A stretch of DNA of 64,000 bases from Streptomyces sp. APSN-46.1 (GTDB lineage Bacteria; Actinomycetota; Actinomycetes; Streptomycetales; Streptomycetaceae): assembly GCF_022815725.1 (NCBI RefSeq), contig NZ_JALGRF010000002.1:248001-312000 (forward strand), given 5' to 3'. A model generated the notes under the pieces. It did not search any database. It worked only from the letters and a program-made list of their open reading frames with translations, and was not told where the DNA came from. The position numbers and the translations under genes were made by a program. Shown here in pieces: positions 27,199 to 40,116 of the stretch (positions are counted from its first letter, which is position 1; each line of letters starts with the position of its first letter).

Positions 27199-27738
27199 CG
27201 GTGGGGCGGCCCTGACGGACGCGGCCGGGGCGGTGCCCTACCCGGGCCGCAACGAGGCGCCAAGGCCAGCCCGCCGGGCGCGCCGCGGGCGGGACCGGGC
27301 CGGGGCTGAGGCCAGGGCTGGGACCGGGGCCAGGGCCGGGGCTAGGGCCGGGAGGGTGAGGGGGCCACGGCCGGGGCCGGGGCCGGGGCCGGGGTCGGGA
27401 GGGTAAGGGGCCGGGGCTGCGGGCTGCTGAGGGGCACCCCGCTGGCCCAGGCCGGTAAGAGGCGGCGGGGTGCGGCGGCCGGCGGAGGCCAGGGGCAGGG
27501 GCGTGTCCCGGGTCGTGGCCGCGACGGCCCGGAGGGTAAGGGCGGTGGACCGGCAGTCGGAGAGGGGCCGGGGCGGAGGCGCAGGGGCAGGGTGCGGCCC
27601 GGGTGGGGTTGGGACGGCTCGGCGGGGTCCTCGTCAGGCCCGGAGGGTAAGGGCGGCGGATCGGCAGTCGGAGAGGGGCCGGGGCGGAGGCGCAGGGTGC
27701 GGCCCGGGTGGGGTTGGGACGGCTCGGCGGGGTCCTCG
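27199..27738. other. Repeat-rich noncoding stretch
   Basis: 540 bp without a supported gene. It begins with ordinary GC-rich sequence, then has G-rich runs (27291-27416), and ends in a ~105-111 bp tandem duplication abutting the PPTase stop. Long open frames here are repeats of Arg, Gly and Ala and are not credible. Confidence 0.7.
27291..27416 (+). repeat. GGGGCC-type simple repeat
   Basis: Runs of three to five G spaced by one to four bases (GGGCCGGGGCCGGGGCCGG and variants). The plus strand could fold into G-quadruplexes. Confidence 0.75.
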
Positions 27739-30181: not shown

Positions 30182-30694
30182 GTGAGCCGTCGTCTCGTGC
30201 CCGCCGCCTTATCCGCCGCCGCCGCTAGCGCCAGAGCTGCCGCTACCGCCACCGCCCTGGCTGCCGTCCTGGTCCTGGCCACCCCGGCGTCCGCCGCCCC
30301 TGCCGACAAGCCCCAGGTCCTCGGCGGCTGGACGCAGACCAGCGCGGCGAGCTACAACGCGTGGGCCGCGGCGCGCGGGAACCAGGGCCAGTGGTCCGCG
30401 TACGGCTTCGACTGGTCGACCGACTACTGCACCACCTCCCCGGACAACCCGTTCGGCTTCCCCTTCCAGATGTCCTGTGCCCGCCACGACTTCGGATACC
30501 GCAACTACAAGGCGGCCGGCTCCTTCTCCGCCAACAAGTCCCGCCTGGACGACGCCTTCTACGCCGACCTCAAGCGGGTCTGCGCGCAGTACTCCGGCGC
30601 GAAGAAGACGTCCTGCACCGGCACGGCGTGGACCTACTACCAGGCCGTAAGGGCGCTCGGCGTCTCGGCGCAAGACACCCCCACCGCCGCCTGA
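30182..30694 (+). CDS. Secreted phospholipase A2
   Basis: A 170-aa exported lipase of the Streptomyces PLA2 class, hydrolysing the sn-2 ester of phospholipids with Ca2+. Signal peptide ends near Ala-Ser-Ala at residue 38. The catalytic dyad is His102-Asp103 in CARHDFGYRNYK, and four cysteines (83, 99, and two near the C-terminus) would form two disulfides. GTG follows GGAGGA by 6 bases. Codon 10 is TTA (30209-30211), so translation should need the bldA tRNA and be tied to development. Confidence 0.92.
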   Translation: MSRRLVPAALSAAAASARAAATATALAAVLVLATPASAAPADKPQVLGGWTQTSAASYNAWAAARGNQGQWSAYGFDWSTDYCTTSPDNPFGFPFQMSCARHDFGYRNYKAAGSFSANKSRLDDAFYADLKRVCAQYSGAKKTSCTGTAWTYYQAVRALGVSAQDTPTAA

Positions 30695-30763
30695 CCCACC
30701 CCTGCCGTCCGCCGCCGCCCCGTCGCACGCCACCGGACCGTCACCGGGCCGCCGATCTGCCCG

Positions 30764-31975
30764 TCACCAGGCGACCGGCAGGGTCTCCGGGCCCCGGTTG
30801 ACGGTGTGGCGGCGCCAGCGAACCTGGTCCGGTCCGACGGCCAGACGGAGTTCCGGAAGTTCCCGCAGCAGCGTGGAGAGGACCACTTCCGACTGCATCC
30901 GCGTGAGCGCGGCGCCCAGGCAGTAGTGCGCGCCGTGGCCGAAGGCGAGGTGGGGTGCCTCGTCGCGGGTCAGGTCCAGCCGGTCGGGATCGGTGAACAC
31001 GTCCGGGTCGCGGTTGGCGGCGAGATACGACACGTAGACAGCCTCGCCGGCCCGGATCAGCGTGTCGCCGATCACGACGTCCTCGGTGGCGATCCGGGGA
31101 AGGCCGACGCCGTTGCGTTGGGGGATGAAGCGCAGCAGTTCCTCGACGGCTCGCGGCAGCAGGGCGGGCTCGGCCCGCAGCAGGGCCAGCTGCTCGGGAT
31201 GGGTGAGCAGCGCGTACACCATGGTCGAGGTCTGATTGCGTACCTGGTCGAGGGCGTTCAGCACGGTCATCACCGACAGGGAGATCAGTTCGGGACGGCT
31301 GAGCGCGCCCTCCCGCTGGGCGCTGACCAGCTCACTGAACAGGTCGTCGCCCGGATCGAGGGCCCGGTGGTCCGCCAGGTTCCGGAAGTAGCCGGCGATC
31401 TCGGCCTTGACGGCGCTGCTCCGCGCCGGTGAGGCGTCACTGGAGAGGATGACGGCACGCCAGCCCTGCAGGCGGCCGAAGTCGCCCGCCGGGACGCCCA
31501 GGAGGTGGCCGATCACCTGTTCCGGCAGCGGCCCAGTCAGCGCCTCCGTCAACTCGGCGGGCGGGCCTTGGGCGGCCATCGCCGCCACCATCCGGTCGGT
31601 GGCCTCCTGGGCCAGGATCCGCAGGGCGCAGGCCCGCCGGCGGTTGAAGGCGTGGGCCACGAGGCGGCGCAGCCGGGTGTGGTCGGGATGGTCGGTACGC
31701 CCGATGCCGCCCACCGGCGCGACGGTGTGCGGCGTCATGCTCGTCACCGGTCGGCCGACGGTCAGCGCGCGGCTGAAGCGCTGGTCGGACGTGATGGTTT
31801 TGACGTCCTCGTACCGGGTCGCGAGCCAGGCGTCGCCCTCACCGAAGCGCATCCGCACACGGGCGATCGGCTCCTCGCGCAGCAGCCGGTGCAGCAGCGG
31901 GTCGAAGCGGAGAGCGTCCAGGGGTTCCACCGCCCAGTGGTGCACTGTGGCGTGCGCGGGGCAGGTCTCGGTCAT
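30764..31975 (-). CDS. Cytochrome P450, CYP158-like (second P450 of the rppA operon)
   Basis: A 403-aa bacterial P450. Heme loop FGHGAHYCLGAAL and ExxR in VEELLRFIP are intact. The I-helix reads NALDQVRNQ, so the usual acid-Thr pair is replaced (Gln, Val), as in CYP158A2, which couples flaviolin without the conserved Thr. It ends RGPETLPVAW like that group. ATG overlaps the cupin stop (ATGA). Expected to act on flaviolin or a related naphthoquinone; the exact reaction is unknown. Last gene of the operon. Confidence 0.9.
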   Translation of the reverse strand: MTETCPAHATVHHWAVEPLDALRFDPLLHRLLREEPIARVRMRFGEGDAWLATRYEDVKTITSDQRFSRALTVGRPVTSMTPHTVAPVGGIGRTDHPDHTRLRRLVAHAFNRRRACALRILAQEATDRMVAAMAAQGPPAELTEALTGPLPEQVIGHLLGVPAGDFGRLQGWRAVILSSDASPARSSAVKAEIAGYFRNLADHRALDPGDDLFSELVSAQREGALSRPELISLSVMTVLNALDQVRNQTSTMVYALLTHPEQLALLRAEPALLPRAVEELLRFIPQRNGVGLPRIATEDVVIGDTLIRAGEAVYVSYLAANRDPDVFTDPDRLDLTRDEAPHLAFGHGAHYCLGAALTRMQSEVVLSTLLRELPELRLAVGPDQVRWRRHTVNRGPETLPVAW

Positions 31976-32550
31976 CGGCCCGCTCCGGCCCGGGTGCCGG
32001 ACGGCAGGGGGGCGTGTCGCAGAGGTGTGAGCTGTTCGATGTCGTAGCGTCGCCGCAGCTCCTCGACGGCCGCGGCGTCGGGACCGGCGTCGGGACCGGC
32101 GTCGGAGTTCAGCAGTTCCAAGAGTTCCTCGAAGTAGCGCTCGTGGTCCGGCGGCGGAGACGCCTGGAACAGCATCCTGGCCGGCGCTCCGGTCGGGTTG
32201 GTGAAGGCGTGCGGGCAGCCGGGCGGTACGAGGATCAGCGTGCCGGCGGTCGCCCGGACGGGCCGTTGGCCGGAGAGCGACTCCCACCCGCGCCAGTCGT
32301 CGCGGGTGCGGACCCTCGGCTCGAAGGCCATCACCTCCAGCTCGCCTTCGATCACGTAGAACAGCTCCTCGCTCCGGTCGTGGGTGTGCGCCCCGACATC
32401 GAAGCCGGGCGGCACCACCACCTCGAAGGTGGAAGCGGTCCGTGAGGACGCGCCGGTCACCTTGAACGTCACCTGCTGGGCGGCGGTGCTGATGGTGCGT
32501 CCGCCGCCCGGGGGGACCACCAGGCCGTCGGACGGATGGGACTGGGGCAC
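31972..32550 (-). CDS. Cupin quinone-forming monooxygenase, MomA-like
   Basis: A 192-aa single-cupin protein. Metal-ligand motif GAHTHDRSEELFYVIEGE and a second half with PPGCPHAFTNPTG. In Streptomyces type III PKS loci, MomA is a cupin that oxidises tetrahydroxynaphthalene to flaviolin; position and size fit. A DAGPDAGPDA repeat lies near residue 152. GTG at 32550 is chosen because GAGGAGCGAAGGAC precedes it. Between two P450 genes, with an ATGA overlap to the second. Confidence 0.82.
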   Translation of the reverse strand: MPQSHPSDGLVVPPGGGRTISTAAQQVTFKVTGASSRTASTFEVVVPPGFDVGAHTHDRSEELFYVIEGELEVMAFEPRVRTRDDWRGWESLSGQRPVRATAGTLILVPPGCPHAFTNPTGAPARMLFQASPPPDHERYFEELLELLNSDAGPDAGPDAAAVEELRRRYDIEQLTPLRHAPLPSGTRAGAGR

Positions 32551-32624
32551 GTCCTTCGCTCCTCTCTCTCGCGTTTTCAGGGCTTCCGCGGGTGGGTTCT
32601 CGCCGCCCGCGCGCCGGTGCTCCG

Positions 32625-33830
32625 TCACCACAGGACGGGGAGCGTTTCGGGGCCGCGGATCAGCGCGCCCCGCCGCCAGTGCAGCTCCCCCTCGGGGACG
32701 GCCAGGCGGAGCCGCGGGAACCGGTCCCAGAGGGACCCGAGGATGATCTCGGACTCCATGCGGGCCATCGCCGCCCCGGGGCAGTAGTGCGGGCCGTGGC
32801 CGAAGGCCAGGTGCGGGTTGGCGACGCGGTCGAAGTCGAGCCGCTCCGGGTCGGCGAAGACCGACGGGTCGCGGTTGGCGCTCAGGTAGGACACGTACAC
32901 GGCTTCGCCGGCCGGGATCGGCACGCCGCCGACCTCGACGTCCTCCAGGGTGATCCGCGCCAGGCCCACGGCGTTGCGGTGGGGGATGTAGCGCAGCAGT
33001 TCGTCGACGGCCTGCGGGATCAGCTCGGGCTCGGCGCGCAGCCGGGCCAGGTGTGCGGGCCGGGTGAGCAGGGCGAAGACCATGTTGGCGCTGTTGTTGC
33101 GTACCGCGTGAGCGCCGCTGATCTGGACCAGGGCCGCGAGACTGACGGCCTCCGCCTCATCGAGGGCACCGCTTCCGACGGCGTCGGCCAGGACTGCGGC
33201 GAGCCCCTCGCCGCCCGGGCCCCGGCGGCGGGTCAGCAGGGCGGAGAAGTAGTCGCCCAGCTCGGTCTTGGCCGCTTCGCTGGCCTCACGGCCGGCCGCG
33301 GCGGAAATGATGGTGTCCGACCAGTGCCCCATCCGGTCGCGGTCCGCTGCCGGTACGCCGACCAGTTCGGAGACCACGGCCAGCGGGAACGGGCGGTTGA
33401 GGTGGGCCACCAGATCGAGTGGCGGACCGTGCCGCTCCATCTCGGCCAGGAGGCCGTCCATGACCGCCTGGGCACGGTCGCGCAGGCGGCGCATGCTGCG
33501 GGCGGTGAACGCGGCGGCGACCACCCGCCTGATCCTGGTGTGCTCCGGCGGGTCGGCGAACCCGACGGCGCCGGCCAGCGGGATGAAGTGCGGGACGAGC
33601 CGGGTGAGGGGCCGCCCCGGGACCGCACGCCGACTGAACCTGGGGTCGACCGAGACGAACTTGACGTCCTCGTACCGGGTCACCACCCAGGCGTGCCCCT
33701 CCCCGTGGGGCAGTCGGATGCGCGCGACGGGCTCCTCGTGGAGCAGGCGGGCCAGCATGGGGTCGTAGTCGAGGCCGGGGAGGTCCGGCGGGGCCCAGAA
33801 GTGGACCGGGGCGTGGGGCGCGACAGTCAC
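32625..33830 (-). CDS. Cytochrome P450, CYP158A-like
   Basis: A 401-aa P450 with heme loop FGHGPHYCPGAAM, ExxR in VDELLRYIP, and end RGPETLPVLW. I-helix GAHAVRNNSANM lacks the acid-Thr pair and matches the CYP158A2 pattern I recall. CYP158A2 dimerises and trimerises flaviolin to pigments in S. coelicolor, where it also follows rppA. GTG at 33830; only a weak AGGA site upstream. It starts 82 bp after rppA. Confidence 0.9.
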   Translation of the reverse strand: MTVAPHAPVHFWAPPDLPGLDYDPMLARLLHEEPVARIRLPHGEGHAWVVTRYEDVKFVSVDPRFSRRAVPGRPLTRLVPHFIPLAGAVGFADPPEHTRIRRVVAAAFTARSMRRLRDRAQAVMDGLLAEMERHGPPLDLVAHLNRPFPLAVVSELVGVPAADRDRMGHWSDTIISAAAGREASEAAKTELGDYFSALLTRRRGPGGEGLAAVLADAVGSGALDEAEAVSLAALVQISGAHAVRNNSANMVFALLTRPAHLARLRAEPELIPQAVDELLRYIPHRNAVGLARITLEDVEVGGVPIPAGEAVYVSYLSANRDPSVFADPERLDFDRVANPHLAFGHGPHYCPGAAMARMESEIILGSLWDRFPRLRLAVPEGELHWRRGALIRGPETLPVLW

Positions 33831-33912
33831 GGGCGGCGAATCCTAGATCGAGAGGAGGGGCGGGAGGCGGGGGAGCGCCGGCGCCGGCGCTGGCGCGCCG
33901 ACGCCGCGGGCG

Positions 33913-35043
33913 TCAGCGGCCCGCGTGGCTGAGAGGGCGGTCGGCCGACAGCGCCGTGCTGCTCGCACCGGAGGCGCGCTGGCGGCCGATCCTGCCGGTG
34001 GTGGTCCACCGCCCGAGGGCGATCTCCGCGCTGATCCCGGGGCCGAAACCGGCGATCAGCCCACGGGCCTGATCGGCGACTCCGCCCTCGTCGAACAGGC
34101 GGCGGAGGGCGTCCAGGACGACGGCGCTGGCGATGTTCCCGTACTCGGTGAGCGTGGCCCGGCTGAAACGGAAGGCTTCCGAGGGGACCTTGAGGTGGGT
34201 GGAGAGATCGTCCAGGATGCGCGGGCCGCCCGCGTGGACGATGTAGAAGTCGAGCGCGGACGCGTCCCACCCGTGCTGTCCGGCCAGGTCGGCGAGGACG
34301 GGCGCGAGCGGTTCCATCGTGCCCGGAACCCGCCGGTCCAGCAGGAAGTGGAAGCCGGTGGAACGGACGCTGTACGCGATCCAGTCCTCGGTGTCCGGGA
34401 TCAGGTGCGAGCCGTTGCGCTCGATCAGGACTCCGGTTCCGCCGGAGCCGCGCACGACCGCGGCGGCCACGGCGTCACCGAAGAGTCCGTTGGAGAGCAG
34501 AGTGCCCACGCCGAGATCGTCGGGCTGATAGCTCAGCGAGCAGAACTCGCAGGCGACGACGAGCGCGTTGGCCTCCGGGTAGGCGGTGCAGAAGTCGTGC
34601 GCCCGGTTGATCGCGCTGCCGCCGGCGGCGCAGCCGAGCTGGGCGATGGGGAGTTGCCGGGTGTCGGACCGGAACCCCAGCTTGTTGATCATCCAGGCCG
34701 TCAGCGAGGGCATCATGAAGCCGGTGCAGGAGACGTAGACGATCAGGTCGATCTCACTCGCGGCCAGCCGGGCGTTGTGCAGGGCCCGTTGGACGACGTC
34801 CGGCACCCGGGCCTTGGCCTCAGCCTCGTAGACGCGGTTGCGGGCCTCGAAGCCCGGATGCCGCAGAGTCTCCTCGAGCGGCTGGACCAGGTGTCGCTTC
34901 CTGACGCCGGTGTTGGTGATCAGCCGGAGCGCCAGCGGCAGCTGGGGGTGGTCCGGATGGACGGTGCGCACGAGATCGAGGGTCTGCTCAAGGCTGATCA
35001 CGTGCTCGGGCACGGCTACAGCGGGTCGGCATAACGTGGCCAT
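33913..35043 (-). CDS. rppA: Type III polyketide synthase, 1,3,6,8-tetrahydroxynaphthalene synthase
   Basis: A 376-aa RppA-type enzyme making tetrahydroxynaphthalene from five malonyl-CoA. Catalytic triad at the canonical RppA positions: Cys138 (QLGCAAGG), His270 (YIVHAGG), Asn303 (EYGNIAS); Tyr224 (WIAY), which selects the malonyl starter, is also present. The C-terminus has ~25 extra Ser/Ala/Arg-rich residues. Codon 4 is TTA (35032-35034, minus strand), predicting bldA dependence. First gene of a four-gene operon. Confidence 0.96.
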   Translation of the reverse strand: MATLCRPAVAVPEHVISLEQTLDLVRTVHPDHPQLPLALRLITNTGVRKRHLVQPLEETLRHPGFEARNRVYEAEAKARVPDVVQRALHNARLAASEIDLIVYVSCTGFMMPSLTAWMINKLGFRSDTRQLPIAQLGCAAGGSAINRAHDFCTAYPEANALVVACEFCSLSYQPDDLGVGTLLSNGLFGDAVAAAVVRGSGGTGVLIERNGSHLIPDTEDWIAYSVRSTGFHFLLDRRVPGTMEPLAPVLADLAGQHGWDASALDFYIVHAGGPRILDDLSTHLKVPSEAFRFSRATLTEYGNIASAVVLDALRRLFDEGGVADQARGLIAGFGPGISAEIALGRWTTTGRIGRQRASGASSTALSADRPLSHAGR

Positions 35044-35253
35044 GGGCGGACATCCAGGGACAGAGGAAGAGCGCCCAGCCGCAAGAACCGGGCGCGTGGC
35101 GAGTCGCCATGCTGATCGTTTCCGATGTCATACGCAGGGAGCAAACCGGAAATAACTACCGAGAATCATCTAATCAGCTGATGTATCCGGGGCGCCGAGC
35201 CGGACGAAGGCGCAGAGCCTTGGCTGAATCGGAGTCCCGCCCGCCAAGGCCGG

Positions 35254-35278
35254 GCAGGGGCTTACGCCGCCGCTACGG
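35254..35278 (+). repeat. Left copy of a 25-bp direct repeat (possible attachment site)
   Basis: Core GGGGCTTACGCCG followed by CCGCTACGG; 24 of 25 bases match the copy at 39945-39969 in the same orientation. The pair encloses 4.7 kb. Confidence 0.6.
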
Positions 35279-35307
35279 CATGCGCGCCGCCGACGGCACT
35301 GGCGGCT

Positions 35308-35363
35308 CGCCGTGTCCGGCCGCCCGCGGATTCCGGCGAGCGCGTGCAGCGCCGGACACGGCG
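35308..35363 (-). terminator. Hairpin after the mtnK-like gene
   Basis: Perfect 13-bp arms CGCCGTGTCCGGC and GCCGGACACGGCG with a 30-nt loop, starting 8 bases after the TGA on the minus strand. Confidence 0.6.
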
Positions 35364-35370
35364 CTGCACG

Positions 35371-36627
35371 TCAACCGTTCCGGGCAGCCGCCGTGAGGTC
35401 AGCGGCGGTGCGGTAACCGGTCGGGGCTGTCACCAGGGAACGGGCCAGTGCCAGGGCTCGACGTTCCGCTTCGGCGCGAACGGTGGCGTCGGTGATGGTG
35501 GTGAAGTCGGCGGGGCGGGCGAAGCCGACGATCCGCCGGATGATCTCCGCGCCGCAGAAGCCCAGCGTCTCCGTGAACAACTCGCCGAGGTAGCGCTGCC
35601 GTTCGGCCTCCAGTGCTGTTGCCGCTTCCCCGGCGAAGAGGGCGGGAGGATAGGCGTCCCCGTCTGCGTGGTCGCGCCACAGCCGGGTGAAGTGTGTTCG
35701 GAACCCGTCCCAGAGCTGTTCCACGCTGGACAGCAGCCAGTTTCGTTGCTCCGACCGGTTGGGTTCGTGCGCGCCGGCTGCGAAGTACCCGATGAGGAGG
35801 TGGGCCAGGAGAGTGCCGATGTCGAAGCCCATGGGCCCGTAACAGGCGAACTCCTGGTCGATCACGCCGATGGACGGCTCGGTCCCGGACTCGGACACCA
35901 TGATCGAACCAGTGTGCAGGTCTCCGTGCAGGAGTGCCTCGCGGGAGGTGAGGTAGCGCGACTTCAGCCGGGACACGGCGAGTTTCAGCTCGATGTCCTG
36001 CTGGAGTTCCCTCACGTCCGCATCGAGCTCCGGGCTGGTCCACCGGTTGCGAGGATGCGGCAGGAGGATCTCGGTGAAGACCATGTCTTCCATGATCTGG
36101 CACATGGCTGTGTTGGCCTCGAAGTACGACGTCAACTCCCGCTTGCGCCCGGCCGGCAGGGCGAGGTCCGATGTGAAGAAGAGCGTGTGGGCCAGGTAGC
36201 GGGCGGCATGCTCGGCGAAGTGCGGGTAACAGGCACCGGCCGTCAGCCCGGTCCGCATGACCGTGTGCCCTTCCAAGTACTCCACGGTGAGGAGATGTTC
36301 GGCGGCGTCGACGTGCAGCGGCTCCGGCAGGTACGGGGCGGCGTGGCGCCGGTGCTCGACCAGCGCGCGATGCTCGAACATGACCCGTTGCGGCGTCAGC
36401 GGCCAGCTCGGTCCGGCCGCCCGCACATACGGGGGAGCCTGCTTGACGCATACGGCCCCCGCCGGGCCACGGACGGCGAACACCAGGTTGACGTTGCCGT
36501 CGCCGATCTCCCGGGCGGACCACTCTTCCCGGACGCCGCCCAGTCTGCACGCGAGTCCGGGTTGTCGGGCCAAGTGGTCGAGGAGCTTCGCGATCTCGGG
36601 TTCGACGATGGAGGGGGGAGCGGGCAT
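35371..36627 (-). CDS. mtnK: S-methyl-5-thioribose kinase-like protein
   Basis: A 418-aa APH-fold kinase closest in pattern to MtnK, which phosphorylates methylthioribose in methionine salvage: GDGNVNLVFAV for the ATP site, catalytic LLHGDLHTGSIMV, then VIDQEFACYGPMGFDIGTLLAHL. ATG at 36627 is preceded by AGGAG. It follows the amine oxidase by 58 bp on the same strand. No other salvage gene (mtnA etc.) is near, and the gene lies between the direct repeats, so the true substrate may be another sugar or aminosugar. Fold certain, substrate inferred. Confidence 0.82.
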   Translation of the reverse strand: MPAPPSIVEPEIAKLLDHLARQPGLACRLGGVREEWSAREIGDGNVNLVFAVRGPAGAVCVKQAPPYVRAAGPSWPLTPQRVMFEHRALVEHRRHAAPYLPEPLHVDAAEHLLTVEYLEGHTVMRTGLTAGACYPHFAEHAARYLAHTLFFTSDLALPAGRKRELTSYFEANTAMCQIMEDMVFTEILLPHPRNRWTSPELDADVRELQQDIELKLAVSRLKSRYLTSREALLHGDLHTGSIMVSESGTEPSIGVIDQEFACYGPMGFDIGTLLAHLLIGYFAAGAHEPNRSEQRNWLLSSVEQLWDGFRTHFTRLWRDHADGDAYPPALFAGEAATALEAERQRYLGELFTETLGFCGAEIIRRIVGFARPADFTTITDATVRAEAERRALALARSLVTAPTGYRTAADLTAAARNG

Positions 36628-36685
36628 GTCTACTCCTGTGGTGAGGACTCGATCGGGGCCGTGAGCAGTGATGAAGGCGCGGATG

Positions 36686-38224
36686 TCATGAGAGCCAGGG
36701 CGGCCGGGGCAGGCCGAGGTGCGCCTGCAGGACCTGCTCGGCGCAGCTGAGAGCGCCAGGTATAGAACCCGGGTCCTCGGTCCAGCAGTCGCTGACGACG
36801 TGCAAGGACGCTCCGGGTGCGGGGGCGCGCATACGGACCGCGACCTGCTCCGGGTCCCGCCCGGTCCGCCACAGGTGCCAGGCTCCCGAGTGGGGGCGGC
36901 GCCCCCAGTCCTGCCAACAGGCCGCCACCGGCGGGGGGGCCTGTACTCCGTGCATGCGGCACAGCAGCCGGTGGGCGTGGGCGACGGCCGCGGCGGTGGC
37001 GGGCGGGCCGCCGTCGAACGTGGCTCCGCTCGCCGGCTCGCCATGTGCGGGCCCCGTTCCGAAGCGGTCCCAGAGCGATGCGGACGGACCGCTGGGGTAC
37101 GCGGCCAGCAGCAGCCTCGACGCCCCTCCCGGTTCGTACCACACCTGCCGCAGCGGGAGATCGGTGGTGCTGCGCCCGGCCCGCACGCCACACGCGCGCC
37201 ACCACGGCTCGTCGTAGGCCAGGAACAGCTTCGAGGCGCGCACCGGCTCGACGGCTTCCAGGTCCTCGGCCCACGAGGACCCGAACACCCCGGGCCCTGC
37301 CGCAAGGCGCCGCAGGGCGCCTTGCGGCAGGGCCAGCACCACCGTCTCGGCCTGGACGCGCTCACGCCGGCCGGTGTCCCGGCCGGTGTGGTCTTCGACG
37401 GCGAACGTCAGTTCGTAGGTCCCGCCGGTCCTGCGGGCACGGTCGATCCGGCACAGTCGGCGGCCCCGACGCGTGCGGCCCCCGGCCTCCTCGAACCCGG
37501 TGTGCAAAGCCCTGGGCAGATCCTCCATGCCGCAGGAGAGCGTGACGTACTCGGCCTGCGGCGGTGTCCCGAACAACACGTCGATCCAGGCCGCCGAGCC
37601 ACCCGGGTGCATGTCGTACCCATCGGTGTCGGCGACGAGCCGTAACGCCTCGTGGCTCAGCGCCGCCGCGAGGACCCGCGGCCAGGAGACCTCCACCAGG
37701 GGCTCGCCCTGTACCAGCGCCGCCCCGTGTGCCGCCCGGTAGAGGGCTCGTGCCGACGCCGCATCAGCGTCCCGGCCCTCCCGGACCGCCCGGTGGTATT
37801 TCTCCCGCAGGCGTCCGAATCCCGGCACCGCCGATTCGACGGCCAGGAGCGTCAACTCGTCCGCATCCGATCCCTGTTCCCGTTTCCCCAATCGGTACGG
37901 AATGCGAGCGCAATGGGCGAAATCCCGCTGGTGCACCAGCATGCCGCGCGCCTGCACCACATTTTCCGGCCGCCCGAAAGGGAAGGGGACCAGGGCGTCG
38001 GTCAGCCCCAGATGTTTCAGCAGGGCCATCACCGGAGCGGCTTCCGTGTTCAAGCGCATGGCACCCAGTTCCGCCCACCCCCCGCCGTGCACCGGGACGG
38101 ACCAGATCCGGCCGCCCACTCGGTGTCCGCTCTCGTACAGCGTCACCTCCCGCGAGCCCACGGCCAGCCGGAAGGCGGTGTAACAGCCTCCCACACCCGC
38201 ACCGATCACGGCCACTCCGCCCAC
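36686..38224 (-). CDS. FAD-dependent amine oxidase
   Basis: A 512-aa flavin amine oxidase. N-terminal dinucleotide fold VAVIGAGVGGCYTAF and the flavin-contact strand YESGHRVGGRIWS; later TVVLALPQGALRRL. The C-terminal FAD motif is atypical (VSDCWTEDPGSIPGALSCAEQ). It resembles L-amino-acid and polyamine oxidases, but I cannot name the substrate. GTG at 38224 (GTG at 38215 also possible). One codon is TTA (37643-37645, minus strand), so it should be bldA-dependent. Divergent from the 38337 gene; probably co-transcribed with the mtnK-like gene. Confidence 0.85.
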   Translation of the reverse strand: MGGVAVIGAGVGGCYTAFRLAVGSREVTLYESGHRVGGRIWSVPVHGGGWAELGAMRLNTEAAPVMALLKHLGLTDALVPFPFGRPENVVQARGMLVHQRDFAHCARIPYRLGKREQGSDADELTLLAVESAVPGFGRLREKYHRAVREGRDADAASARALYRAAHGAALVQGEPLVEVSWPRVLAAALSHEALRLVADTDGYDMHPGGSAAWIDVLFGTPPQAEYVTLSCGMEDLPRALHTGFEEAGGRTRRGRRLCRIDRARRTGGTYELTFAVEDHTGRDTGRRERVQAETVVLALPQGALRRLAAGPGVFGSSWAEDLEAVEPVRASKLFLAYDEPWWRACGVRAGRSTTDLPLRQVWYEPGGASRLLLAAYPSGPSASLWDRFGTGPAHGEPASGATFDGGPPATAAAVAHAHRLLCRMHGVQAPPPVAACWQDWGRRPHSGAWHLWRTGRDPEQVAVRMRAPAPGASLHVVSDCWTEDPGSIPGALSCAEQVLQAHLGLPRPPWLS

Positions 38225-38272
38225 GCGTCACCCCGCCGGTTCGAGCCAATCAGACGTCTTTCTCTTTACCGC

Positions 38273-38289
38273 TCCATGCCGGACATGGA
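38273..38289. promoter_or_regulatory. Dyad in the divergent promoter region
   Basis: TCCATG-CCGGA-CATGGA, between the amine oxidase and the 38337 gene, in an AT-richer 112-bp gap. Candidate operator shared by both. Confidence 0.35.
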
Positions 38290-38336
38290 ACATCAATTGA
38301 ACAAATCAAGCGACCGTCGCGGCAACGGGAGACTAA

Positions 38337-39005
38337 GTGATCTTCAGGACCGACGTACTCGCCCAAGCACCCTCCGCCTATGACGCACTGTCTGAATACT
38401 TCCGGGACGTTCGCGCCTTCTACGAGGTCATCAGCGTTCGCTTCGCGATCCCGGAGTACGGCGTTCGCCTCACCCCCGTGGCCGGAAATGAACTGCATTC
38501 CAACGCCAACAGTTACTTGCTCTCCGACAACAGCTCCTACCCCTTCTACCTCTGGCTGCCCACCTGGCTCGGCCGCTTCTACATCGACCCCGAGCGCATC
38601 CCGGCGGACTGTCCGGCCGACGACTGTCCCACCGACAAAGCCGGCCTCATTGCCTTCGTCTGGCCGTGGCTGGGCTTCAACGACGCATACGTCAAGGACG
38701 CCGACGGACCTGAGTGCTGGTTCGGCGTTGCGGATGCCCGCCCGGAGGACCCGCACGAGACTGTCCGCACCACAGCCAGCAGCTTGTTCAACTACTTCCG
38801 CCTCGAACGCACCCTGGACGACGAGAAGGACGGCTGGGCCACCGGCACGTTCGCCGGCCGCGACATCGGCTGCAACCTCACCGGCCGCTGGCACCTGCGC
38901 CGCGCTCCCATGGCAGAGCTGACCAGTTACTACGAGGTCGAACGCAACATCATCAGGCCTCTTGGGGAGAAATTCACCGCGTTGGCCGGCTCGGCAGACG
39001 CTTGA
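38337..39005 (+). CDS. Protein of unknown function
   Basis: A 222-aa soluble protein, rich in aromatic residues (YPFYLWLPTWLGRFYIDPERI, VWPWLGFNDAYV), with no signal peptide or membrane helix and three cysteines. I recognise no family. GTG at 38337 lies 5 bases after GGGAGA. Codon use looks slightly less GC-biased than neighbours. The stop overlaps the start of the acyl-CoA dehydrogenase remnant (TGATG), so the two were once coupled. It lies between the direct repeats. Confidence 0.72.
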   Translation: MIFRTDVLAQAPSAYDALSEYFRDVRAFYEVISVRFAIPEYGVRLTPVAGNELHSNANSYLLSDNSSYPFYLWLPTWLGRFYIDPERIPADCPADDCPTDKAGLIAFVWPWLGFNDAYVKDADGPECWFGVADARPEDPHETVRTTASSLFNYFRLERTLDDEKDGWATGTFAGRDIGCNLTGRWHLRRAPMAELTSYYEVERNIIRPLGEKFTALAGSADA

Positions 39006-39890
39006 TGGTCGGATCCCCCGCATCTCGGCGTCCCGACGCCGAGATGCTGTCCGAGACGTCTCGTGTCGCCGACGAGCTGCTGAGCCCCAGCGCCGACCGG
39101 ACCGCACACGACGGTGTGCCCCGCGCCCACTTGGACGCCCTCGGTGCGTCTGGCGCCCTCGGCCTGGCGACCCGGAACCCGGCCCTGCTCCGGCGCGCCA
39201 CGGAGATCGTCTCGGCAGCCGACGGCGCCACCTGGTTCGTCTACGCTCAACACCACCAGCCCGTCAGAGCGGTCGCCGCCAGCGACAACCAGATTCTGCG
39301 GGACCGCTGGCTCACCCCCCTGCTCACCGGCCGGCCCCTCAGCGGCCACGCGATCTCGACGTGTCCGTCACACGCGACCAGGTCGTGAGCTTGTCCCGGC
39401 ACGAGGACTGGCTGCGCACCTACCTCCACCGCAACGCCAACACCCACCCCGCCGTGTTCGGCCATGTGCAGGGGACCACCCGGTATCTCGGCCGGTACGA
39501 GGCGTTCAAGGGCTGGGCCGACAGCGCGACACTCCTTGCCGACCGGCTCACGAAGCGACCGAGGAACGGCTCGCGACCCGCGCGGCCGTCGTCGACCTGG
39601 CACTGCGCAGCGCCGCCGCGTGCCTCGCGGCATCTGGTGCCCGGGCCATGGGGTCGGACACTACGGCGGCCCGGCTGATGGGCGAAGCCTCGTTCCATCT
39701 GGTCCACGGCCAGACACCCCAGGCCAAGCACGCGTACGCACACCTCACGGACGCCCGAACCACACATGCCCTGACGTGCCGCCGATCTTCGGAAGCGCAC
39801 CGAGGCTCCGCAGGAGCTGCCCGCCGTGGTATCGCCGGCGGACCAGTCGCGGCACAACTTCGGGAAGTTTTCGGGAAGAACAGCCGTTAA
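39005..39890 (+). pseudogene. Acyl-CoA dehydrogenase-like, decayed
   Basis: Three frames together cover an acyl-CoA dehydrogenase. 39005-39388 gives the helical N-terminus (DELLSPSADRTAHDGVPRAH ... RPLSGHAIS). 39361 onward, in another frame, resumes with DQVVSLSRHEDWLR ... LLADRL. Near 39549 it shifts again to EATEERLATRAAVVDLALR ... HAYAHLTD. The beta-domain of about 130 residues that should join the first two pieces is missing. So there is an internal deletion and at least one further frameshift; the enzyme cannot be made. Confidence 0.75.
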
Positions 39891-39944
39891 GAGCCCTCCG
39901 AAGCCGGGTTCAGTCGGACTGCCACCCCTGCCGTCAGGGGCGGT

Positions 39945-39969
39945 GCAGGGGCTTACGCCGACGCTACGG
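39945..39969 (+). repeat. Right copy of the 25-bp direct repeat
   Basis: GGGGCTTACGCCG then ACGCTACGG, one base different from the left copy at 35254. It lies about 75 bp beyond the 3' end of tRNA-Arg, next to a small hairpin CCCCTG-CCGT-CAGGGG (39925-39940). Confidence 0.6.
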
Positions 39970-40001
39970 TGCCCGCGTTAAAGTGCCGCTGACCTGCAAG
40001 A

Positions 40002-40024
40002 AAGCCCTCCGCGAGGGAGGGCTT
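40002..40024 (-). terminator. tRNA-Arg terminator
   Basis: AAGCCCTCC / GGAGGGCTT, a 9-bp stem with a 5-nt loop, 20 bp downstream of the tRNA 3' end on its strand and followed by TCTTGC. Confidence 0.75.
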
Positions 40025-40043
40025 GAGGGTGGGACGTGGAGAG

Positions 40044-40116
40044 TGCCCCCGGCAGGACTCGAACCTGCGGCCAAGTGCTTAGAAGGCACCTGCTCTATCC
40101 ACTGAGCTACGGGGGC
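40044..40116 (-). tRNA. tRNA-Arg (anticodon UCU)
   Basis: Minus strand GCCCCCGTAGCTCAGTGG opens the 7-bp acceptor (GCCCCCG/CGGGGGC) and D-arm; anticodon loop CTTCTAA gives UCU, reading AGA; T-arm contains GGTTCGAGTCC. Discriminator A; CCA is not encoded. All four arms pair. tRNA genes are frequent integration sites, and a direct repeat lies close to its 3' side. Confidence 0.96.

Follow-up and report, generated by a model that had tools for sequence, protein, structure and literature searches.

Introduction

Actinomycete integrative and conjugative elements (AICEs), together with defective AICEs, have been described as accreted at a transfer RNA (tRNA)-Arg gene in a Streptomyces population (PMC9513070). 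In Streptomyces avermitilis, Sav3708 and Sav3728 are tandem AICEs in a tRNA-Arg gene, and Frankia Fean6303 has three direct repeats that reach beyond the tRNA-Arg 3′ end (PMC3218068). Here we describe a segment beside the tRNA-Arg(UCU) gene of Streptomyces sp. APSN-46.1, in a stretch of 64,000 nucleotides (contig NZ_JALGRF010000002.1; hereafter the window, whose first letter is position 1), which holds a block with a type III polyketide synthase (PKS) gene, a four-gene cassette and the remains of an integrase gene. An earlier note, made from the sequence of the window alone, had proposed an island of 4.7 kb between 25-bp direct repeats at this site. Our analysis indicates that the 3′ end of tRNA-Arg(UCU) is an integration hotspot, that the region from 30.7 to 39.98 kb is probably what this genome keeps there in eroded form, and that it may have been left by two successive insertions.

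The Streptomyces population resembles this locus, as read here, in its successive insertions at one tRNA-Arg, in a conserved remnant lacking traB and in the decay of cargo; it differs in that functional traB elements and identical repeats are described there, whereas here only cargo and integrase tails are left and the repeats do not represent an attachment core. With Sav3708/Sav3728 and Fean6303, the locus would share tandem insertion at a tRNA-Arg, and it shares repeats lying past the tRNA 3′ end, but those elements keep functional modules, and the comparison is one of descriptions rather than sequences. For both reports the likeness is drawn at the level of tRNA-Arg and does not equate their genes with the tRNA-Arg gene studied here. 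Streptomyces elements that stack and decay at a tRNA-Arg gene have been published before, and the present locus is a further, more eroded case; it leaves the general picture of Streptomyces genome plasticity unchanged and represents an ordinary kind of bacterial genome change.

Results

The end of an integrase gene adjoins tRNA-Arg(UCU)

When the DNA from position 39781 to the tRNA gene was compared with 392 genomes of the genus, the best match (92% over 657 bases) was to the flank of the same tRNA gene in the genome that we label G046. The portion of this DNA up to 40000 is 85% identical to G046, where its counterpart is the 3′ end of an open integrase frame of 480 codons, the product of which matches Phage_integrase (PF00589, E = 2.7e-8). 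The corresponding frame in the window encodes 66 residues that align with the G046 integrase at E = 3e-23 (Table 1). An integrase gene adjoining the tRNA is therefore present, solely as a C-terminal relic of 66 codons that is not functional, and the earlier statement that no integrase remains has to be withdrawn. No match to an integrase of the G046 type was obtained at E = 1e-40 or better in the strain's own genome. Two other genomes, G323 and G350, hold just 47 and 55 open codons of the integrase tail beside the same tRNA, so relics reduced to the tail occur beyond this strain as well. Because the tail end of an integration enzyme survives here, we read the adjoining gene block as worn-down mobile DNA; a few dozen integrase-tail codons can identify an island after its repeats, its tRNA fragment and nearly all of its mobility functions have been lost.

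The tRNA flank is a hotspot with empty and occupied sites

Among the regions around this tRNA in 40 relatives, the conserved gene to the left of the segment was found by tblastn in 18, at a distance from the tRNA that ranged from 108 bp to 17.7 kb, compared with about 9.3 kb in the window. This documents tRNA-Arg(UCU) as a hotspot whose content among relatives varies from about 0.1 to 17.7 kb. The five shortest gaps belong to G012 (108 bp), G278 (117 bp), G362 (144 bp), G209 (175 bp) and G038 (178 bp). Those of G012, G278 and G209 hold a single copy of the motif, and no copy lies in the gaps of G038 and G362; the empty site with one repeat copy that the earlier note had looked for thus exists in three relatives, albeit with a diverged copy. 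Since the type III PKS, P450 and cupin genes are missing from these empty sites too, the interval that is empty there equals about 9.3 kb in the window and not 4.7 kb. In an initial comparison with 20 relatives, collinear blocks stop at 30648-30723 in nine, and no DNA homology (E = 1e-5) to either 30.7-35.24 or 35.3-39.78 kb was detected in any of the 40 regions, six of which (G323 and G350 included) have homology to the integrase tail at 39781-39940. As judged from these alignments, the strain-specific DNA is about 30.7-39.98 kb, or roughly 9.3 kb. An island confined to 35254-39969 was rejected on the ends of collinearity, the gaps in relatives and the absence of the outer block from the site, and the size of 4.7 kb given earlier is too small by the same measure.

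Partial 3′ copies of tRNA-Arg(UCU) accompany islands in 5 of the 40 regions. In G046 the integrase gene ends next to the tRNA, and a 50-bp, 100% identical copy of the tRNA 3′ half and flank lies about 15.5 kb to its left; this is the live arrangement, and the 50-bp copy is what the distal end of an integrated element should look like. The G046 island (locus L037) has the same target, a homologous integrase tail and the same flank as the window, but it retains the full 480-codon integrase frame and the far-end tRNA copy, both of which the window lacks, and no homology was found between that island and the window cassette. Of the 199 genomes searched, 120 have a match to the G046 integrase at E = 1e-40 or better. 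Such a match lies within 1 kb of the tRNA-Arg flank in at least 17 of the 199 (G015, G033, G041, G046, G050, G057, G059, G061, G064, G067, G073, G079, G081, G116, G157, G162 and G187), a lower bound since coordinates were compared among the matches listed.

The tRNA flank carries a motif, CTTACG..CTACG..GCTAA followed by the terminator hairpin of the tRNA, at 39950-40003 of the window and in the flanks of relatives, where it was recovered beside the tRNA in 16 of 40 with a loose test for CTTAC. A stricter count over a subset of flanks (27 of 58 loci gave a tRNA match, leaving 23 distinct flanks, 9 of them with the strict motif) is not relied on here. In some genomes the motif reads as the C-terminus of the integrase, the last dozen codons and the stop falling within it, and in others it stands alone with no visible element; by its letters it looks promoter-like on the + strand. 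With more doubt than confidence, we suggest that integrases targeting tRNA-Arg(UCU) end in a stretch homologous to the chromosome's own tRNA flank, either as a captured piece of host flank or as a footprint of insertion. If the flank were captured, host flank and terminator would provide the 3′ end of the integrase gene and the tRNA would keep its downstream context after insertion; if it were a footprint, each successful insertion would leave an integrase tail, and the tRNA flank would be a readable record of past insertions.

The direct repeats

The two 25-mers, at 35254-35278 and 39945-39969, are in the same orientation and identical at 24 of 25 positions, as had been noted, and the distance from the right copy to the tRNA 3′ end, estimated earlier at about 75 bp, measures 73 bp. 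A scan of the window allowing up to 3 mismatches returned only these two copies (shuffle expectation 0.00, 100 shuffles), and 25-mers repeated directly with no more than 1 mismatch arose in none of 200 Markov resamples of the 11-kb region and in none of 40 of the whole window. In the 6.6-Mb genome, the 22-base core of the repeat at up to 3 mismatches matched both copies and one further site with 3 mismatches, which we take as chance level because the reversed pattern gave 3 matches in the same search. At up to 1 mismatch, the 25-mer is present in 1 of 101 genus genomes, namely the strain's own. A dispersed repeat family was ruled out by this scarcity in the window, the genome and the 101 genomes. 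Against a plasmid collection, the region of the left copy had no match and that of the right tail had two 34-base matches (E = 0.02).

The right 25-mer is integrase coding sequence, since it lies inside the in-frame tail at 39781-39981. The proposal that the 25-mers are the attachment core bounding an island was rejected: they lie outside the tRNA, whereas the core in G046 is located in the tRNA 3′ half, which the far-end repeat there includes and of which the window has no such fragment. Flanking attL/attR attachment repeats containing the tRNA 3′ end were likewise not found, the window having no second tRNA fragment. What holds of the earlier reading is an old, eroded insertion beside the tRNA; the 25-mers appear to be pieces of integrase tails and of tRNA-flanking DNA. 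Neither of the patterns named at the outset as contrary to an island, many copies of the 25-mer around the genome or the same genes at the same site in most relatives, was seen.

Among the 25-mer pairs listed for the window, other real ones are short-spaced repeats near 27.5 kb, where a cluster of direct repeats spans about 27547-27729 with a spacing of about 105-111 bp, and one pair between the two P450 genes.

Origin of the segment

The left copy, which has no stop codon, aligns locally with the integrase tail of G046 (Table 1) and, at 40 of 48 columns, with the window's own tail. It might instead be the original chromosomal flank of the tRNA, displaced to the left by a single element spanning 35.29-39.98 kb, with the PKS block already in place by another route. 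Consistent with such a displacement, single-copy flanks of relatives carry the motif (CTTAC is in place in 16 of 40), the left copy agrees with the flanks of G012 and of G209 at 28 of 34 positions, as many as with the right copy, and G046 has exactly such a displaced flank. However, when 35050-35299 was searched against 295 genomes, the top non-self match was the G046 tail (83% over 52 positions, E = 3.2e-6), and the window's own right copy (3.3e-5) also ranked ahead of the chromosomal flanks of G074, G209 and G012 (5.5e-4 to 0.0019). When alignments were anchored at the repeat, only the two integrase tails proved similar to the bases left of the motif: shuffles reached the score in 0 and 4 of 500 cases for the tails, but in 216 and 373 of 500 for the G012 flank and the displaced flank of G046. 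Because of these ranks and anchored tests, we favour, though not strongly, an older integrase tail over a displaced flank, the latter being possible but on the unlikely side. As far as such alignments can tell, the left copy most likely derives from the end of a related integrase gene older than the one at 39781-39981, so that the 25-bp repeats would mark two successive insertions and not an attachment core.

Two other accounts concern how the cassette and the repeats came to lie together. The cassette may have come by ordinary recombination or transposition between two older relics, with the tail left by an unrelated earlier element; the junction between cassette homology, which ends at 39780, and integrase tail, which begins at 39781, is abrupt, and four other Streptomyces loci with the cassette have no tRNA in the DNA fetched. 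We consider this unlikely, given that the cassette sits between two integrase-like tails, as the cargo of an element would. A repeat arisen by chance, or one with a solely regulatory role and unrelated to insertion, appears a very improbable account of the 25-mer: a single motif copy does occur beside the tRNA in relatives with no visible element, yet the repeat exists in just two copies, is effectively unique in the genome, did not arise in 200 resamples and, on the right, falls within an integrase reading frame.

For two successive insertions, the following course can be proposed. Tyrosine-integrase elements, whether AICE-like or other genomic islands, would recombine into the 3′ half of the tRNA gene and would carry the integrase as their terminal gene, which stops some 60-100 bp short of the tRNA. 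A first element would have inserted carrying the PKS block; a second would then have entered the tRNA and pushed the tail of the first integrase to 35.25 kb; and deletions would have removed the tRNA fragment, most of the second integrase and all other mobility genes. The four-gene cassette and the final 66 integrase codons would be the remainder of the last element.

Several observations weigh against this course. The left copy is short, its agreement with G012 and G209 equals that of the right copy, and its downstream side is dissimilar (498, 89 and 215 of 500 shuffles). In the search with 35050-35299 an unrelated match ranked second at E = 2.1e-5, so that the value for the G046 tail is just modestly better, and in unanchored local alignment 174 and 27 of 500 shuffles reached the scores of the upstream side with the integrase tails. 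A search of 29.0-42.0 kb, the left copy included, turned up no fragment of the tRNA gene. No relative was found with the same cassette at this tRNA, and the cassette is accordingly assigned as cargo from its position. The named open reading frames of 30.7-40.0 kb include no conjugation or replication gene, although no search aimed at Tra/Rep (traB) was made, and the segment is not filed as an AICE.

Table 1 Features of the segment beside tRNA-Arg(UCU), in window coordinates
Feature	Position	Strand	Basis or remark
Left conserved neighbour, small secreted-type protein	30182-30694	+	Relatives cease to be collinear close to its 3′ end
Outer strain-specific block	30695-35235		P450, cupin, P450, type III PKS
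First P450	30764-31975	-	Assigned via DNA similarity to second P450
Cupin	31972-32631	-	Pfam/NCBIfam
Second P450	32625-33830	-	Pfam/NCBIfam
Type III PKS	33913-35043	-	Pfam/NCBIfam
Putative older integrase tail with left 25-mer (35254-35278)	35236-35287	+	44/53 columns versus G046 tail
Cargo cassette (putative cargo)	35300-39780		Collinear with Streptomyces sp. NRRL F-4489
mtnK-like S-methyl-5-thioribose kinase, intact	35371-36627	-	TIGR01767, 427 bits (NCBIfam cut-off 275)
FAD amine oxidoreductase, intact	36686-38224	-	PF01593, E = 2.6e-33
Orphan 222-amino acid protein, intact	38337-39005	+	Conserved beside oxidase gene in other Streptomyces
Broken acyl-CoA dehydrogenase-like gene (tentative label)	39005-39780	+	ATG at 39005, first stop after 127 codons
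Tyrosine integrase relic, last 66 codons and stop	39781-39981	+	43/63 identical to G046 integrase
Right 25-mer	39945-39969	+	Within integrase tail
Terminator-like hairpin downstream of tRNA	40002-40024		Read from sequences; on element and chromosome flank versions
tRNA-Arg(UCU), integration target	40043-40116	-	ARAGORN; partial 3′-half copies at relatives' islands

A conserved cassette with an orphan protein

The cassette aligns with a locus of Streptomyces sp. NRRL F-4489 (L075) at 91.1% identity over 35300-39357 (4076 columns) and 84.4% over 39360-39780 (461 columns), and homology is bounded by 35300 and 39780. At 91% DNA identity overall, that locus matches the cassette in its four genes and in their order; it differs in that its fourth gene is intact and the fetched locus has no tRNA. 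The four genes occur in this order also in S. cinerochromogenes, Streptomyces sp. UNOB3_S3 and S. cellostaticus. No tRNA was found in the fetched DNA of the 13 scanned loci that carry the cassette or the pair of oxidase and orphan genes, the four cassette loci included. The family searches bear out the mtnK-like kinase, amine oxidase and unknown protein of the earlier note (Table 1), the orphan 222-residue product having no Pfam or NCBIfam family match. Its view that the genes lie outside the core genome also agrees with our counts: a kinase above the mtnK cut-off is encoded in 9 of 101 genus genomes, this one included, and cassette homology is absent from the site in the 40 regions of relatives. 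G+C content at third codon positions is 0.83-0.85 in the intact cassette genes versus 0.91-0.93 in the GTPase genes adjoining the tRNA.

Relative to F-4489, the ratio of nonsynonymous to synonymous substitution rates is 0.27 for the kinase gene, 0.29 for the oxidase gene and 0.075 for the orphan gene, so all three probably remained functional during most of their divergence from F-4489. Together, a methylthioribose kinase and an oxidase suggest a role in salvage or specialised metabolism, to go by their family assignments. The orphan protein is at least 70% identical across 13 aligned Streptomyces sequences, and its gene lies beside the gene for the flavin adenine dinucleotide (FAD)-dependent oxidase in 13 of 13 loci (L073-L085), in two different gene neighbourhoods. 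In seven other named loci and in G351 and G329, only the oxidase (43-48% amino acid identity) and the orphan (70-73%) adjoin. Structure prediction for the orphan gave a mean predicted local distance difference test (pLDDT) score of 35, and the best hit in a profile search of PDB sequences had E = 0.24. The analysis also exposes a compact, conserved cassette and, within it, an orphan protein family. The fourth gene has indeed decayed, with deletions of 253 and 40 bp compared with its intact homologue of 353 amino acids in F-4489. The dehydrogenase label given to it earlier is tentative because that homologue has only a sub-threshold match (PF02770, 12.6 bits against a cut-off of 33.3, E = 0.16).

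Within the oxidase gene, 37293-37334 forms a perfect 19-bp hairpin with a 4-base loop. The counterpart in F-4489 shares the right arm but shows clustered substitutions in the left, a pattern expected if the left arm had been re-copied from the right one by template switching or quasi-palindrome correction; the hairpin may also be an assembly artefact. At six loci with the oxidase/orphan pair (L079, L080, L081, L083, L084 and L085), the contigs end about 5.3-5.4 kb past the orphan gene, and this common end suggests a repeat or a shared assembly break.

The left neighbour and the outer block

The left boundary of the segment is a gene for a small protein that we tentatively call phospholipase A2-like. 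The outer block to its right has partial matches at other places in 133 of 199 genus genomes, and among the matches listed these are mostly the PKS stretch alone; none of the matches falls in the 40 regions at this tRNA, to which the comparison of sites was limited.

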